Positions 53,296 through 62,423 of a stretch of 64,000 bases of DNA are shown one piece after another (the stretch's first letter is position 1; each line of letters opens with the position of its first letter). Origin of the DNA: Aquisphaera giovannonii (GTDB lineage Bacteria; Planctomycetota; Planctomycetia; Isosphaerales; Isosphaeraceae); assembly GCF_008087625.1 (NCBI RefSeq), contig NZ_CP042997.1, forward strand, positions 1,426,001 through 1,490,000. The letters run 5' to 3'. Under the pieces are notes generated by a model, which was not told the DNA's origin, did not search any database, and saw only the letters and a list, made by a program, of their open reading frames with translations. Position numbers and translations under genes: made by a program.

Positions 53296-55719
53296 TCAAT
53301 CCACCTGGATCTTCGCCCCCTCCTTCCGCGCCGCGTCGAGGAACTTCTGGCCGTCGAAGATGTCCGGAGGGAATCTCTCCGGGTCCATCGGCGTGATGAC
53401 GACGCGGCGGGTCCTGGTGGAGTCCGCCTGCTGCTCGGCCTCGGGCTTGCCCGAGGCATCGAACCGGTCCAGGTGGTGGAGCTGCGTCCATTCCGAGGCG
53501 TACCAGATTCCCCCGGGGAGCTGGGCCCAGCGGACGGCCTTCGAATCGGTCCGGAACCTCATCCGGGCGCCATCGAGGCCCGACCACTCGACCTTCCGAG
53601 CGACGGCGTAGCCGTGCTCCGGATCCGCCTCATAGAGCCTGCGGATCTGGGGATATTCCACCTTGATCGTCACCCGCCCCTGCGGCGTGCCGGGCTCGGC
53701 CGGGACGACCTCGATGTTCCGGCGGTTGTCGAACGCATATCCCCAGGTCTCCTGGATCGGCTTCGGGAGGGAGTCGAATGAATCGCCCCGGAGGACGTGG
53801 ACCCGGACCTGATTCCGCTTGCCCGTCCCGTCCACCAGCCGCGTCAGGTCGTACTGCGTCTTGCCGTCGTTGAGATGGACGTTCACCGACTTGTCGATCG
53901 GCAGCCATGCGGCCAGCGCGTCGGCCGGGAGGTCCCTGCCCGGGCGGGTCCGCAGGGCTCGCGGGATTTCGACCTTGGACGAAGCCTGATGGTCCGCGAA
54001 GAAGGACCGAGGGGGCCCGACGTCGTAGATCCTCGGGCTGTCGTGGCCGCGGGCGTTCGCGGCACTCGCCTCGAGGTAGCCCTCCGGGGCCGACCAGTAC
54101 GTCAGTTGCAGGCCGTAATTCCCGTCATCGACGATGCGGAGCGATCGGGGGAGGCGTTCGATGCACTCCGCGGCGCCCTCGAAGGCCTGCTGAAGCGTCG
54201 GCGGAAGCTTGACCTTGTTGAGCGTCTCCTCATCCACGATCGGCGTCCCCGCCGGCACGCCCACGGCGTAGATATCGGCCGGGCCGGTCCCGCCGTAGGC
54301 GATGGTCGTCGTCCGGTACTCGCGCTTGTATCGACTCTGCTCGCCGAGCTGGAGGATCTCCCGCCGCCGGACCGGCCGGCCCGTCTCGAGGTCGTACCAC
54401 GTCTGCTCGGCCAGCCTCAATTTGCCGAGCGAGTCGGGCCGGGACATGTCGATGCGGAGGCAGCGGCGCCCGTCGAGGTCCGCGACCTCGGCGTCGGACG
54501 CGAAGTTCCCGCCCACGATCCGACGCCCCTCGGGGGCCGTCCGCCGGCGGATCTCGGCCGGATCGAGGGGCCTGACGCCGGCGCGGTCGAGGGCGTAGCC
54601 GACGTCGCGGCTCCCGTCGGGATTGACCCCGACTGGTTCCGGCCGCCGCACGATCGGCTCGCCGCGCTGGTAGAACAGCTCGGTCCCCGATGCCGGGTCG
54701 TGGACGCCGGCATACTCGTCGGACTTCCAGAGGTTCCGCCCGTCTTCCAGCCGTACCCACGACTCGAAACCGGTGTCGGACGTCATGTGCGCCCACTTCG
54801 GAGGGGCGGGCGCTGTGGCCTTCGCGGGCGGCGGCTGGGCCGGCCTGGGGGCCTGGGCCTGCGGCCCCGCTCCCGCGATCCCATTCCAGATGAGCCCGGC
54901 GCCGGCGAGGGCCAGCAGCACCGGCACGGCGATCTTCAGTCTGGACAGCACCATCATCCGCAGGACCTCCCCCGCCAGGTTCAGGACTCCGGCCGGCACC
55001 GTCCCCGCGGCGCCGCCCGCCGCGAACAGACTCGCCGCCCAGGCCGTCGCGCCGATCAGACCGGCCGGCAGGCTAGCCGACTCGGCCTCCCGGACCAGGG
55101 ACGCCGCCAGCGAGGCCGCCGAGAGCGTGACGCCGCGCCGGGTGAGGCGGCTCGCCAGCATCGCCCGGCCCCTCGACAGCCGACTCGAGACCGTGCCGGG
55201 CGGGCATCCGAGCTGGCTCGCCGCGTCCTTCTGCGTCCTGCCCTCCAGGTCGCAGAGGACGACGGGCATCCGGAATCGCTCGGGCAGGCGGCCTAGCTCC
55301 TCGTCCAGGATCGCCAGCAGGTCGTCCCGGTCCCGGTCCCTCGCGGCCTCGGGCTCGGGCATCTCCGCCACCGGCCGCTCCCTCGCCCGCCGCCTGGAAG
55401 CCATCGCCCTGGCCCTCACGGCCGTCTTGTGCGCCACGGCGTAGAGCCAGCCGGCCAGCCTCTCGCGACGGGCGATCGAGCCGGCCTTCCGGGCGAGCAC
55501 GAGGAACGTGGCCTGGAACGCGTCCTCCGCATCATGGGGATCTCGCAGGATCCGCCGGCAGACGCCCCAGACCATCGGCCCGTGGCGCACGACGATCGCC
55601 CCGAACGCCGACTCGTCGCGGGTCGCGGCGAACTGCGCGAGGAGATGGCGGTCTGGAAGTCCGCCGGACGCCCCCGTCGCGAACAGAGCCTCGAGATCCC
55701 GACCGGGAGCCTTCATCAT
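53296..55719 (-). CDS. ECF sigma factor fused to a transmembrane segment and extracytoplasmic domain
   Basis: An 807-residue protein from ATG 55719. Residues about 24-100 are sigma region 2 (HLLAQFAATRDESAFGAIVV, DPHDAEDAFQATFLVLARKA), and about 130-192 sigma region 4 (LPERFRMPVVLCDLEGRTQK, GCPPGTVSSRLSRGRAMLAS). A linker (about 193-260) leads to one transmembrane helix at 262-281 (LKIAVPVLLALAGAGLIWNG). Some 525 residues follow, predicted outside the cytoplasm, with no recognised domain (WYDLETGRPVRRREILQLGE, VHVLRGDSFDSLPKPIQETW). Planctomycete ECF sigma factors with C-terminal extensions are known. No separate anti-sigma gene lies beside it, so sensing may be intramolecular. Confidence 0.85.
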   Translation of the reverse strand: MMKAPGRDLEALFATGASGGLPDRHLLAQFAATRDESAFGAIVVRHGPMVWGVCRRILRDPHDAEDAFQATFLVLARKAGSIARRERLAGWLYAVAHKTAVRARAMASRRRARERPVAEMPEPEAARDRDRDDLLAILDEELGRLPERFRMPVVLCDLEGRTQKDAASQLGCPPGTVSSRLSRGRAMLASRLTRRGVTLSAASLAASLVREAESASLPAGLIGATAWAASLFAAGGAAGTVPAGVLNLAGEVLRMMVLSRLKIAVPVLLALAGAGLIWNGIAGAGPQAQAPRPAQPPPAKATAPAPPKWAHMTSDTGFESWVRLEDGRNLWKSDEYAGVHDPASGTELFYQRGEPIVRRPEPVGVNPDGSRDVGYALDRAGVRPLDPAEIRRRTAPEGRRIVGGNFASDAEVADLDGRRCLRIDMSRPDSLGKLRLAEQTWYDLETGRPVRRREILQLGEQSRYKREYRTTTIAYGGTGPADIYAVGVPAGTPIVDEETLNKVKLPPTLQQAFEGAAECIERLPRSLRIVDDGNYGLQLTYWSAPEGYLEASAANARGHDSPRIYDVGPPRSFFADHQASSKVEIPRALRTRPGRDLPADALAAWLPIDKSVNVHLNDGKTQYDLTRLVDGTGKRNQVRVHVLRGDSFDSLPKPIQETWGYAFDNRRNIEVVPAEPGTPQGRVTIKVEYPQIRRLYEADPEHGYAVARKVEWSGLDGARMRFRTDSKAVRWAQLPGGIWYASEWTQLHHLDRFDASGKPEAEQQADSTRTRRVVITPMDPERFPPDIFDGQKFLDAARKEGAKIQVD

Positions 55720-56106
55720 CTCGGTTCCCCCGCCACCGCCCTGAGCCGTCGCCGCCTGACCGTGAACTACCGCCCGGCGCCGGATTCATCCAGGTATTTC
55801 CAAAAAGGCGGACGGGCGATTGGAGGAATTCGCGCCAAGATCGTATTCCCGATGACGAACACCCCGGGGGCCTCCGTCGTCTAAGCTGTCGGATGCGGCC
55901 GTCGGCCCGTCCGCTTGCGGGCCGGCGGGGCGGGCGGTAAGTTTGACGACCTTAGGACTCGGAACGGGGCGGCCGCGAGGCGCCCGGGGCGGGCTCTGAC
56001 TTTTGTCCGAAAATCTCTGGCCAGCGTTCGGCCGATAGCCGACAATGGCCCGCTCGGGGCGGGCCCGCGGCGCCTGGATTCCGCGGGGCGAACACGGGGG
56101 CGAGAC
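55720..56106. other. Divergent promoter region
   Basis: Lies between the sigma-factor gene (minus) and moxR (plus). TTTTTGGAAAT on the minus strand near 55795-55806 and TTTGACG (55942-55948) on the plus strand are possible promoter elements, neither with a well-placed partner. No gene seen. Confidence 0.35.
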
Positions 56107-57135
<1,029 letters not shown>

Positions 57136-57224
57136 CCCCGTCGCCGCGGCCGGATCGCGGGCGGCGTGACCTCCCCACGCCTCGCGCCTCAACCCCCCCC
57201 CGTCCCCCGAGGCCAGCACCGGAC

Positions 57225-58136
57225 ATGTTCCCCGAACGCCGCCAGCGGAGCTTCCTGGACACGCGGGTGCTCTCGCGCCTCTCGGGCTTCCCGCTGTTCG
57301 CCCGGACTCCCATGCTGGGCTCGGTCTCCGGGCGGCACCCGAGCCCCCACCGCGGCTCGAGCGTCGAGTTCGCGGAGTACCGCAAGTACGTCCCCGGGGA
57401 CGACCTCCGGCGCCTCGACTGGCGGGCCTACGGGCGGTCCGACCGGTTCTACGTCAAGGAGTTCGAGGCCGACACCAACCTCCGCTGCTGCCTCGTCCTG
57501 GACACGAGCGGCTCCATGGGCTACGGCTCGAAGGAGGTCACCAAGATCGAGTACGCCCGCCGCCTCGCCGGGGGCATCGCCCACCTGGCCATCCAGCAGG
57601 GGGACGCCGCGGGCGTCGCGTGCGTGGCCGGCGGGATCGTCCGCAACCTGCCGCCCAGGCGCAATCCGGCCCACCTGTCCTCGCTCTACGACGTCCTCGA
57701 GCAGGCCCAGCCGAAGGGGGAGACGCGGATCGACGAGGTGCTCCACGAGCTGGCGGAGACCGTCCGCCAGCGGGCGTTCGTCGTGATCCTGTCCGACCTG
57801 TTCATCGAGCCCCGCCGGCTGGCCGGGGGCTTCCAGCACCTGAGGTTCCGCCGGCACGACGTCGCGGTCTTCCACCTGCTGGACCCGAAGGAGCTGAGCT
57901 TCGACTTCCGCCGGCCCACCCGGTTCCTCGACATGGAAGGCGGCCCCGCCCTCTTCGCCGACCCCAGCGAGATCGCCGAGCGGTACCGGAAGGCCATCGG
58001 CGGGTACCTCGACGACCTCAAGCAGGTCATGCTGGAGTCGGCCGTGGACTACCACCGCGTCGGCATCGACGAGGACTACGAGCAGACCCTGATGCGATTC
58101 CTGATCGGCCGGGCCCGGGGGAAGGGCGCCCGATGA
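57225..58136 (+). CDS. DUF58 protein with VWA-like fold
   Basis: A 303-residue protein from ATG 57225. The DUF58 hallmark GSSVEFAEYRKYVPGDDLRR and LDWRAYGRSDRFYVKEFE is followed by a MIDAS-type metal site VLDTSGSMGYG (about 95-105). No membrane segment, unlike many DUF58 proteins. Works with the adjacent MoxR, probably as a client or adaptor. Its stop overlaps the next start (ATGA). Confidence 0.92.
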   Translation: MFPERRQRSFLDTRVLSRLSGFPLFARTPMLGSVSGRHPSPHRGSSVEFAEYRKYVPGDDLRRLDWRAYGRSDRFYVKEFEADTNLRCCLVLDTSGSMGYGSKEVTKIEYARRLAGGIAHLAIQQGDAAGVACVAGGIVRNLPPRRNPAHLSSLYDVLEQAQPKGETRIDEVLHELAETVRQRAFVVILSDLFIEPRRLAGGFQHLRFRRHDVAVFHLLDPKELSFDFRRPTRFLDMEGGPALFADPSEIAERYRKAIGGYLDDLKQVMLESAVDYHRVGIDEDYEQTLMRFLIGRARGKGAR

Positions 58137-60169
58137 GCTTCCTCCAGCCGATGTTCCTGGCCGCGATGCCCCTGGTCGCCCTGCCGATCATCATCCACCT
58201 GATCAACCAGCGGCGGTACCAGACCGTGCGCTGGGGGGCGATGATGTTCCTCCTGGCGGCGAACCGCATGTCGCGCGGGTTCGCCCGGATCCGCCAGTGG
58301 CTGATCATGGCCTTCCGGATGGCGGCGATCGCCGGCCTGGTCGTCGCGATCAGCCGGCCGCTCGCCGGGGGCTGGCTGGGCATGGCCGCCGGCACCAGGC
58401 CGGACACGACGATCGTCCTGCTGGACCGCTCGCCCAGCATGCAGCAGACCGAGGAGGGGGGCGGCGGCTCCAAGCTGGAGACCGGCCGCCGGCAGCTCGT
58501 CCGGACGATGGAGACCCTGGGCTCCGGCCACTGGATGCTCGTCGAGAGCGCGACCAACGCGCCCCGCGAGCTGGAGACGCCGGAGGCCCTGGTCGCCACC
58601 CCGAGCGCCGGGCCGGTCAGCGCCTCGTCGGACGTGCCGGCCATGCTCCTGGCCGCGCGGGACTACATCCGGGCGAACAAGGTGGGCCGGACCGAGGTCT
58701 GGATCTGCTCCGACCTGCGGGCCAACGACTGGGACCCGGAGGGCGGCCGCTGGTCGTCGCTCCGCGAGGCGTTCCTGGAGATGTCGCAGTCCGTCCGCTT
58801 CCACGTCCTGGCCTATCCCCGGCCGGCCGCCGAGAACCTCGCCGTGCGGGTCACGGGCGTCCGCCGCCAGCCGTCCGGCGCCGGGGCGGAGCTGCTCGTC
58901 TCCCTGAGCATCCGCCGCGAGGGGGCCGACGCGAAGGCCGACGAGGCGGCCACCTCCTCGGGCGACTCGGGGAGGCGGTCGATCCCCGTGCAGGTCGAGA
59001 TCGACGGCGCGCGGTCGGAGCTCACGGTCGAGATGACGGGCCCGACGTTCGAGCTGAAGGACCACAAGATCCCGCTCGAGCGGACGCACGTGAAGGGCTG
59101 GGGCCGGGTCTCGATCCCCGCCGACGCGAACCCGGCGGACAACGACGACTGGTTCGTCTTCGACGAGCCGGCGCCGCGGCACGCGGTGGTCGTGGCGGAG
59201 GACCCGCAGGCGGCCCGCCCGCTCCAGCTCGCCGCGTCGATCCCGCCGGCCCCGCAGGTGAAGTGCTCGGCCGAGGTCGTCGCCCCGGACAAGCTGGCGG
59301 GCGTGGAGTGGGAGAAGGTCTCGGTCCTGCTCTGGCAGGCCCCGCTGCCTACCGCGGACGCGGCCAAGGCGGTGCAGGCGTACGTGGACCGCGGCGGCCA
59401 GGTCCTGTTCTTCCCGCCCCGCAACCCCGGCCCCGAGGAGTTCCGCGGCGTCCGCTGGACGGCCTGGGAGCAGCCCGGCAAGGAGGCGTCGGTCGCCACC
59501 TGGCGGGGCGACCAGGACGTGCTCTCGCAGACCCAGAGCGGCGGCCCGCTGCCGGTCGGCCAGCTCCAGGTCCGCCGGCACTGCGGCCTGGCGGGCGAGT
59601 CCACCGCGCTGGCGAGCCTGGCCGGCGGGGCCCCCCTGCTCTCCCGCGTCTCGACGGACTCCGGCGGCGTCTACCTCTGCGGCACGACGCCGGCCCCGGG
59701 CGACTCCTCGATGGCCACCAACGGCGTGGTCCTCTACGTCATGGTCCAGCGGCTCTCCGAGGCCGGGGCGAAGGTCCTGGGCTCGACCCGCGAGCTCGTC
59801 GCCGGCCCCGCATCGGGCGAGGACCCCTCGACCTGGAAACGCCTCGCGGGCGCCGACGAGGGCCTCTCCACGGACGCGGCGCTCCACCGGGGCATCTACC
59901 GGGCGGGCGACCGGCTGATCGCCGTGACGCGATCCCCCGCGGAGGACCTCGCCCCGGTCGTCGCCGACGACCGCCTCGCCGGCCTCTTCCGGGGCCTGGA
60001 TTACTCCCGGGTCGACGACCGCGCCGGCAACGTCGGCTCCCTCATCCAGGAGACCTGGCGGCTCTTCCTCGTCGGCATGATGGTGGCCATGGTGGTCGAG
60101 GCCGCGCTCTGCATGCCCCGCCCGCGGCCCTCGCCGGCCGTCGCGATGGTTGGAGGTGCCGCGTCATGA
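58133..60169 (+). CDS. BatA-type membrane protein with VWA domain
   Basis: A 678-residue protein from ATG 58133. N-terminal BatA/aerotolerance region with two helices: FLAAMPLVALPIIIHLINQR, the motif RRYQTVRWGAMMFL, and a second helix near MAFRMAAIAGLVVAISRPLA. A VWA domain (about 85-250) has MIDAS residues in LLDRSPSMQQT. A large region with CARDB-like linkers and a glutamine amidotransferase-like part follows. One final helix (about 630-655, LFLVGMMVAMVVEAALCM). Third gene of the MoxR operon; overlaps both neighbours by 4 nt. Confidence 0.88.
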   Translation: MSFLQPMFLAAMPLVALPIIIHLINQRRYQTVRWGAMMFLLAANRMSRGFARIRQWLIMAFRMAAIAGLVVAISRPLAGGWLGMAAGTRPDTTIVLLDRSPSMQQTEEGGGGSKLETGRRQLVRTMETLGSGHWMLVESATNAPRELETPEALVATPSAGPVSASSDVPAMLLAARDYIRANKVGRTEVWICSDLRANDWDPEGGRWSSLREAFLEMSQSVRFHVLAYPRPAAENLAVRVTGVRRQPSGAGAELLVSLSIRREGADAKADEAATSSGDSGRRSIPVQVEIDGARSELTVEMTGPTFELKDHKIPLERTHVKGWGRVSIPADANPADNDDWFVFDEPAPRHAVVVAEDPQAARPLQLAASIPPAPQVKCSAEVVAPDKLAGVEWEKVSVLLWQAPLPTADAAKAVQAYVDRGGQVLFFPPRNPGPEEFRGVRWTAWEQPGKEASVATWRGDQDVLSQTQSGGPLPVGQLQVRRHCGLAGESTALASLAGGAPLLSRVSTDSGGVYLCGTTPAPGDSSMATNGVVLYVMVQRLSEAGAKVLGSTRELVAGPASGEDPSTWKRLAGADEGLSTDAALHRGIYRAGDRLIAVTRSPAEDLAPVVADDRLAGLFRGLDYSRVDDRAGNVGSLIQETWRLFLVGMMVAMVVEAALCMPRPRPSPAVAMVGGAAS

Positions 60170-62370
60170 AGATGGACGTGGTCCGCTCGCTGACGTTCCT
60201 GTGGACCCCCTGGTCGCTCGGGATCTCGATCGCCCTGGTGCTGATCACGGCCGGGTTCTGCCTCGTCGCCTGGCGACGATCCGGCTACCACCGCGGCATG
60301 GGCCTGCTCGAGCTGCTCCGCCTGGCGCTGGTGACGCTCGCGGCGATCATGCTCAACCAGCCGGAATGGGTGGAGGAGTACCGCCCCGAGGAGCGGCCGA
60401 CGGTGGCCGTCCTCTGGGACGACTCGCCGAGCATGGACACCCGCGACGTCATAACCAGGGGCAAGCCGCCGGGCTCCGCGGAGACCCGCCGCGAGGCGAT
60501 CGCCCCCTTCACCAAGGACCCGGCGTGGGCGAAGGTCCGCGGGCGGATGAACGTGGTGATCCAGCCGTTCTCCACCGCGAGGGCCGGGCACGGCACCGAC
60601 CTGCACGAGGCCCTGGCCGGGGCGCTAGAGAAGGTCCAGAACCTCCGCGGCATCGTCCTGGCGAGCGACGGCGACTGGAACGAGGGGCCGCCCCCGGTGC
60701 AGGCCGCGGCGCGGCTCCGCGTGAAGGACGTCCCGGTCTTCGCCGTCCCCGCCGGCAGCCCGACGCGGCTCCCGGACGTGGAGCTGCTCAGCCTGGACGC
60801 CCCCACCTTCGGCGTCGCCGGCAAGTCCGTCCGGATCCCGTTCACGATCGAGAGCTCCCTGCCGCGCGAGTACGTCGCCACGGTCACGCTCCGCACCTCC
60901 GAGGGCGAGACGCTCACCAAGGAGGTCGCGATCGCCCCGATGACCCGGACGGCCGACTGGATCCTCTGGAGGCCGAAGGCCACCGGCAACGTCACGCTCA
61001 CCGTGGAGATCCCGCGCCACGGCGAGGAGATCCTGGCCGACAACAACACGATGACCGCCCCGATCGCCATCCGCGAGGAGAAGCTGCGGGTGCTCGTGGT
61101 GGAGTCGGTCCCGCGGTGGGAGTATCGCTACCTCCGCAACGCCCTCTCGCGCGATCCCGGCGTGGAGGTGTCGTGCCTGCTCTTCCACCCGGGCCTCAGC
61201 AAGGTGGGCGGCGGCAACAAGGACTACATCAAGCAGTTCCCCGCGGGGCTCGACGAGCTGTCGAAGTACGACGTCGTCTTCCTGGGCGACGTGGGCGTGG
61301 GCGACGGCCAGCTCACCGCGGAGCAGTGCCGCCTGCTCAAGGGGCTGGTGGAATACCAGGCGAGCGGCCTGGTCTTCATGCCCGGCATCCTGGGCCGCGA
61401 GTTCTCGCTCATGGACACCGAGCTGGCGGACCTCTGCCCGGTGACGATGGACGCGGCGCAGCCGTCGGGCTGGGGCTCGCGCACGCCCAACCACTTCGAG
61501 CTGACGGAGACCGGCCGCGCCAGCCTGCTGACGAAGCTGGCCGACACGACCGACGACAACGCCGAGGTCTGGGAGGCCCTGCCCGGCTTCCAGTGGTACG
61601 CCCCGGTGCTCAAGGCGAAGGCCGGCAGCGAGGTCCTCGCCGTCCACAAGGACGCCTCCAACGAGTTCGGCCGCCTGCCCCTGCTGGCCACGCGGACCTT
61701 CGGCGCCGGCAAGGTCCTGTTCATGGGGACCGACGGGGCCTGGCGGTGGCGGAAGGGGGTGGAGGACAAGTACCACTACCGCTTCTGGGGCCAGGTCGTC
61801 CGCTGGATGGCCTACCAGCGGAACATGGCCAAGGGCGAGACCATGCGGCTGTACTACGCCCCCGACCAGCCGAAGATGCACCAGACCCTGGCGCTGCACG
61901 CCAACGTCATGGACCGCGGCGGCGAGCCGCTCCACGGCGGCGACGTCTCGGCGCTGATCACCGCGCCCTCGGGCAAGTCGGAGCGGGTGCGGTTCACGTC
62001 GGCCGGGGACGAGTGGGGCGTCTTCGCCGGCCGGTTCACGGCCGCGGAGCCCGGCAAGCACGAGGTCGTCCTGACCTGCAAGGAGACCGGATCCAGGCTG
62101 GAGACGTCCTTCTTCGTCCAGGGCGTCGCGGCCGAGCGCCTGGGCCGCCCGGCCCGGCCGGAGGTCCTCGACGAGATCGCGCGGGTGACCCGCGGCAAGG
62201 TGATCGAGCCGGGCAACCTCGACGAGGCCGTCCGGTCGATCGCGGAGCTGCCGGAGCCGCCCCCGTCGGTCCGCCGGATCCAGCTGTGGAGCCACCCGGT
62301 CTTGGCCGCCGCCATCGTCCTCCTGCTCGGCGTATTCTGGGTGGGACGGAAGGTCATCGGTCTTGTATGA
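60166..62370 (+). CDS. Membrane protein with VWA and glutamine amidotransferase-like domains
   Basis: A 734-residue protein from ATG 60166, with TGGAGGTG (60150-60157) upstream. Two N-terminal helices (about 15-35 and 45-63), then a VWA-like domain with MIDAS-type VLWDDSPSMDTRD and VLASDGDWNEGPPP. A class I glutamine amidotransferase-like Rossmann region (about 300-500, VLVVESVPRWEYRYLRNALS, VVFLGDVGVGDGQL) follows. A C-terminal helix (about 708-728, PVLAAAIVLLLGVFWVGRKV) anchors the end. It pairs with the previous BatA-like protein in many planctomycete genomes. Confidence 0.88.
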   Translation: MKMDVVRSLTFLWTPWSLGISIALVLITAGFCLVAWRRSGYHRGMGLLELLRLALVTLAAIMLNQPEWVEEYRPEERPTVAVLWDDSPSMDTRDVITRGKPPGSAETRREAIAPFTKDPAWAKVRGRMNVVIQPFSTARAGHGTDLHEALAGALEKVQNLRGIVLASDGDWNEGPPPVQAAARLRVKDVPVFAVPAGSPTRLPDVELLSLDAPTFGVAGKSVRIPFTIESSLPREYVATVTLRTSEGETLTKEVAIAPMTRTADWILWRPKATGNVTLTVEIPRHGEEILADNNTMTAPIAIREEKLRVLVVESVPRWEYRYLRNALSRDPGVEVSCLLFHPGLSKVGGGNKDYIKQFPAGLDELSKYDVVFLGDVGVGDGQLTAEQCRLLKGLVEYQASGLVFMPGILGREFSLMDTELADLCPVTMDAAQPSGWGSRTPNHFELTETGRASLLTKLADTTDDNAEVWEALPGFQWYAPVLKAKAGSEVLAVHKDASNEFGRLPLLATRTFGAGKVLFMGTDGAWRWRKGVEDKYHYRFWGQVVRWMAYQRNMAKGETMRLYYAPDQPKMHQTLALHANVMDRGGEPLHGGDVSALITAPSGKSERVRFTSAGDEWGVFAGRFTAAEPGKHEVVLTCKETGSRLETSFFVQGVAAERLGRPARPEVLDEIARVTRGKVIEPGNLDEAVRSIAELPEPPPSVRRIQLWSHPVLAAAIVLLLGVFWVGRKVIGLV

Positions 62371-62423
62371 TAGCGTCGTAAAGGGCCCTTACCCGTCCTC
62401 CCATCGATTCGCGAGGGGTCGCC

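Follow-up and report, generated by a model that had tools for sequence, protein, structure and literature searches.

In the sigmaE-RseA-RseB and AlgU-MucA-MucB systems, an ECF sigma factor, a single-pass membrane anchor and an outside sensor of the LolA fold are distributed over three proteins. RseB and MucB, which have a LolA-like fold, are separate soluble periplasmic proteins that bind the RseA-like anti-sigma factor; they also bind lipids and control protease access to RseA/MucA, whose cleavage responds to lipid or lipoprotein signals via RseB/MucB (PMC7400510, PMC10202637). Other ECF sigma factors are continuous with a membrane segment. IutY (ECF243) of Pseudomonas putida is a sigma factor fused to a membrane anti-sigma domain with a helix and a periplasmic part; it functions in siderophore signalling and is activated by Prc and RseP (PMC8999054). 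Members of ECF48/52/53 from Actinobacteria, such as SCO4117, carry a C-terminal transmembrane extension with a zinc-finger anti-sigma segment and outside domains other than the one described below. In planctomycetes, ECF57, described by Jogler et al. 2012 and Casas-Pastor et al. 2021 (as reviewed in PMC8999054) and with a named example from Singulisphaera, combines C-terminal extensions with conserved Cys residues that link sigma2 and sigma4, and a conformational mechanism has been proposed for it (PMC8999054). Repeats of the WD40 kind are prevalent in this group. ECF sigma factors of Tuwongella, a planctomycete in which forms with WD40 are frequent, have been found in detergent-soluble fractions (PMC8567305).

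Here we describe a fused ECF sigma factor encoded in a window of 64,000 nucleotides from the 10.5-Mb genome of Aquisphaera giovannonii. The gene is a single uninterrupted open reading frame of 807 aa with no internal stops (Table 1), for which alignment with the protein of A. insulae makes the second ATG (Met2) a more likely translation start than the first. The matches to Sigma70_r2 and Sigma70_r4_2 both exceed the curated Pfam cut-offs, and the sigma part of the structural model superimposes on region 2 of Escherichia coli sigmaE with a Z score of 14.2 and an rmsd of 1.7 over 91 residues. Pfam gave no significant match beyond residue 192, and no anti-sigma family of Pfam matched the protein at E values up to 10. 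The extension after region 4 spans about 615 residues. Its helix, although modelled like the linker with low AlphaFold confidence, is the most hydrophobic 19-residue window of the protein (Kyte-Doolittle 1.95; the best window past residue 310 reaches 0.76) and leaves about 520 residues on the extracytoplasmic side. The original prediction that a sigma factor, a helix and an outside domain are united in one protein is therefore upheld.

Table 1. Features of the fused sigma factor gene, in window coordinates
Feature	Coordinates	Strand	Basis or remark
Whole gene	53296..55719	-	807 codons + stop
Sigma-70 region 2, residues 43-109, including Cys54	55393..55593	-	Pfam PF04542, E 3.3e-11
Sigma-70 region 4, residues 137-188, including Cys156	55156..55311	-	Pfam PF08281, E 1.9e-13; model
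Linker, residues 193-261	54937..55143	-	Common to ~50 genome paralogues
Putative transmembrane helix, residues 263-281, N-terminus inside	54877..54933	-	Hydropathy and flanking charges
Pro/Ala-rich spacer, residues 282-305	54805..54876	-	From translation
First predicted LolA-fold domain, residues 306-498	54226..54804	-	AlphaFold; EPDR1/LolA/RseB, Z 7-8.7
Second predicted LolA-fold domain, residues 506-807	53299..54204	-	AlphaFold; DUF1329, LolB, LolA3, Z 11-12

By translation, the neighbours in the window are what we take to be a MoxR-like gene and a Gfo/Idh/MocA-like gene, and the neighbour in A. insulae is presumably an anhydromuramic-acid kinase-like gene. Because the flanking genes differ between the Aquisphaera species, the gene appears to stand alone. 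The region divergent from it (55915-62381) presumably encodes, as judged by eye, a MoxR ATPase, a DUF58 protein and large VWA-type membrane proteins. None of the neighbouring genes was recognised as encoding an anti-sigma factor, in line with the proposal that the protein acts without a separate one, and no conserved promoter or terminator was recognised.

With the outside part as the query against 59 related genomes, six fused homologues were identified in Isosphaeraceae. Their frames are 793-849 aa long and start with the ECF sigma factor, followed in 6/6 by the hydrophobic segment and the outside domain, so that the helix, whose presence in homologues the original prediction had proposed to check, is retained. 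The orthologue of A. insulae JC669 is 69% identical and equal in its full architecture, and the other five are 33-35% identical to the query across the whole length. Positive charges predominate on the cytoplasmic side of the helix in most of the homologues, and Cys54 and Cys156 are invariant in the query and all six. A sequencing artefact is excluded because all six homologues keep both the fusion and the helix; a frameshift or stop at the junction, which the original prediction had named as a possible flaw, is likewise ruled out, the fusion being kept in a second species and three further genomes. In a search of contigs, a single protein as the query retrieved nothing and an alignment retrieved five loci. 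One Isosphaeraceae genome harbors two fused sigma-sensor genes in tandem (L032, 4657-7104 and 7194-9575).

The outside part had no match among Pfam, NCBIfam and PDB sequence profiles, and the PDB profile search, extended to E values of 10, matched neither RseB nor any other solved structure in sequence. An AlphaFold model based on seven sequences (mean pLDDT 77, pTM 0.59) predicts two consecutive beta-rich domains, the first with a motif, Y..TGPAD.YA.GVP, close to its end. The first domain matches EPDR1 (Z 8.7, 147 aligned), LolA (7.3) and RseB (2p4b, 7.2, rmsd 5.1, 130 aligned), and the second matches a DUF1329 protein (Z 12.1), LolB (9tpm, 11.5, 211 aligned), LolA3 (9tp6, 11.2, 192 aligned) and RseB (3m4w, 6.6). 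Matches found with Foldseek include RseB and MucB. The outside part is thus predicted to belong to the LolA/LolB/RseB fold superfamily, its curved beta sheet with helices being matched over most of the domain; as both RseB Z values, obtained with a predicted model, are below 8, our assignment extends only to this wider fold. The two halves gave no direct sequence match to each other (hhalign probability 0.3%), and their likeness, as modelled, is structural only.

A profile search revealed the same outside domain as separate membrane-anchored proteins in other planctomycete families. With a combined profile it was detected in at least 41 of the 397 genomes of the class, a lower bound from three scored candidates per genome. 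The best counterpart is a 515-aa membrane protein (L097/L098), whose gene at L097 overlaps the end of a 164-aa ECF sigma gene by four bases. The outside domain of the fused family is homologous along its entire length to the L097/L098 proteins, with an hhalign probability of 99.4% (E 6.5e-22, 422 columns), and a second set of separate proteins reaches 98.7%; the C-termini of 48 other paralogues, used as a control, score no higher than 1.5%. An ECF sigma open reading frame lies directly upstream on the same strand at 37 of the 39 separate sensor loci, the exceptions being a locus truncated at the end of its contig (L036) and an apparently secreted form that lacks a sigma gene (L157). When overlaps were filtered more strictly, an upstream ECF sigma gene was retained for 31/39 sensors versus 2/111 other open reading frames at the same loci. 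The genome of the window also harbors one such separate pair (L035).

Because the domain is encoded elsewhere by a separate gene directly behind a sigma gene, it is likely to be the signal-receiving half of the switch, and that one lineage encodes the two halves side by side and another as a fusion argues for one pathway. As judged by these alignments, the fusion is the one-polypeptide version of an ECF/membrane-sensor pair. The pairs of Planctomycetia share with it the homologous outside domain and the single helix, and they differ in consisting of two genes and in a short cytosolic segment before the helix (mostly 52-90 aa) that was not detected in the fused protein. This segment may be a small anti-sigma domain, as yet a candidate new one; of this family of separate sensors (L097, L098, L131-L163), those scanned gave no Pfam match. 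The idea that the linker of the fused protein is a relic of the segment found no support (hhalign probability 0.04%). At several loci the first LolA-like domain is joined to other modules behind ECF sigma genes, namely to PSCyt2/PSD1 domains (L149, L150, L151 and L154) and to ankyrin repeats (L100). Whether homologues carry the two halves as separate genes, a point raised by the original prediction, therefore has a divided answer: the six closest homologues are all fused, and for the outside half the more distant homologues are encoded separately, by a neighbouring gene.

The sigma half belongs to a large family. About 50 open reading frames of the same genome match residues 6-310 of the query, comprising the sigma factor, linker and helix, mostly with 40-57% identity; a match along the entire sequence is seen for the query alone. 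In 46/49 paralogues (query included), the window with the highest hydrophobicity anywhere in the protein lies at 225-305, and the C-termini beyond it are highly diverse, including carboxypeptidase-regulatory-like, WD40/PD40, DUF1559, redoxin and other sequences. In the paralogue with the highest identity to the query (L037, G000:C1:4850318-4851244; 57% across the part in common), an in-frame TAG separates region 2 from region 4; it is probably a broken copy, or else the TAG reflects a sequence error. As judged by the conserved Cys pair (46/49) and the C-terminal extensions, these sigma-linker-helix proteins probably match the described planctomycete group ECF57, and their general architecture is already known. 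The query displays the long C-terminal extension and the conserved sigma2 and sigma4 Cys of that group; it lacks the WD40/PD40 repeats of some sister paralogues, and its extension is instead a predicted tandem LolA fold, which the literature searched does not describe for ECF57. With some 50 paralogues that share sigma factor, linker and helix, and with ECF57, ECF48/52/53 and IutY described, the fusion is not an isolated case.

A tree of the sigma domains places both fusions from Aquisphaera in a group with a single paralogue (94/88); the remaining five fusions form a group (100/100) that joins three other paralogues (99/94). A single origin of the seven fused sigma parts was recovered in 0/200 bootstrap trees (AU p 0.044). 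This suggests that the sensor cassette has been exchanged between sigma genes; the evidence is moderate, as the paralogues come from one genome and the grouping was defined only once the tree had been inspected. In-place merging of an adjacent pair is not favoured because the sigma parts of the seven fusions fall on two branches and, moreover, within the paralogue family, apart from the sigma factors of the separate pairs, which lie on long branches of the tree.

Taken together, we consider it on balance probable that the protein is a transmembrane switch in one polypeptide. An ECF57-type sigma factor would be held at the cytoplasmic face of the membrane by one helix and, so anchored, would be withheld from productive use by RNA polymerase. 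The two predicted LolA/RseB-fold domains outside would take up the signal, which, by analogy with proteins of this fold, is likely to be a hydrophobic molecule of the envelope such as a mislocalised lipoprotein or a lipid. The signal would lead to cleavage at or beside the helix, in which an RseP-like M50 protease would follow a first protease, and the sigma domain would be freed. IutY, for which release by Prc and RseP has been shown, and RseA provide analogies that make such proteolytic release plausible. Several M50 proteases are encoded in the genome of the window, but they say little, since such proteases occur in 14/14 control genomes.

The main rival is a conformational mechanism without cleavage, which we regard as rather unlikely. 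The sigma factor would be active while anchored, the ligand changing the state of the helix or oligomer such that regions 2 and 4 are freed for polymerase at membrane-near DNA, perhaps with the help of Cys54 and Cys156. The retention of both Cys residues in 46/49 paralogues is consistent with this, as is the conformational mechanism proposed for ECF57 with its Cys pair (PMC8999054), and no cleavage site or site-2-protease site was identified in the fused protein. Against it, paralogues whose C-termini are quite unlike one another share the Cys pair, and cleavage is what activates IutY, the membrane-linked sigma fusion that has been characterised experimentally (PMC8999054).

LolA-fold proteins also act as carriers, which counts against a sensor and raises the improbable alternative that the outside domains are cargo: LolA/LolB-like carriers of lipids or lipoproteins added by shuffling to a sigma factor regulated otherwise, for example by its expression level. 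The varied C-termini of the paralogues, some of them enzyme-like as in the redoxins, and the presence of the sensor on two sigma branches fit cargo, whereas the membrane anchoring of the separate versions and their position behind ECF sigma genes (37/39) fit a sigma regulator and not a free carrier. A decayed or non-functional sigma factor, of which the in-frame TAG of a close paralogue might be taken as a sign, is very improbable given that regions 2 and 4 are intact and conserved and that the orthologue in A. insulae is full-length.

Returning to the proteolytic switch, we put forward tentatively the possibility that a whole envelope-stress pathway of the sigmaE-RseA-RseB type has been condensed into a single protein without an anti-sigma domain. 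Tethering alone would hold the sigma factor, a tandem LolA-fold sensor of lipids or lipoproteins would trigger its release, and the sensor would be an exchangeable cassette, used by planctomycetes as a separate partner of an ECF sigma factor or as a fusion. The fused protein shares with the three-protein systems an ECF sigma factor, a single-pass anchor and an outside sensor predicted to have the LolA fold, the resemblance of the last being one of fold and not of sequence. It differs from them in that the sensor is covalently joined to the sigma factor and helix and no RseA-like anti-sigma segment is recognised. It likewise differs from IutY, with its anti-sigma domain, and from ECF48/52/53.

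Rather than standing apart from known modules, the outside domain thus has a predicted LolA/LolB/RseB-like fold and homology to separate ECF-linked membrane proteins. What is new is the tandem LolA-fold sensor, as predicted, the existence of a counterpart encoded by a gene of its own, and the occurrence of the sensor on two branches of the sigma tree; in the literature searched, no paper combined LolA, anti-sigma factors and Planctomycetes, and a description elsewhere is possible. In planctomycetes, ECF sigma factors whose large extensions are unexplained number in the dozens, and this genome has about 50. For one such extension there is now a predicted fold, a likely signal class and a counterpart encoded separately, which opens to direct testing the general idea that these extensions serve as outside sensors for sigma factors tethered to the membrane. 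The results also point to a family of ECF-linked membrane proteins for whose sensor domain no Pfam model was found.
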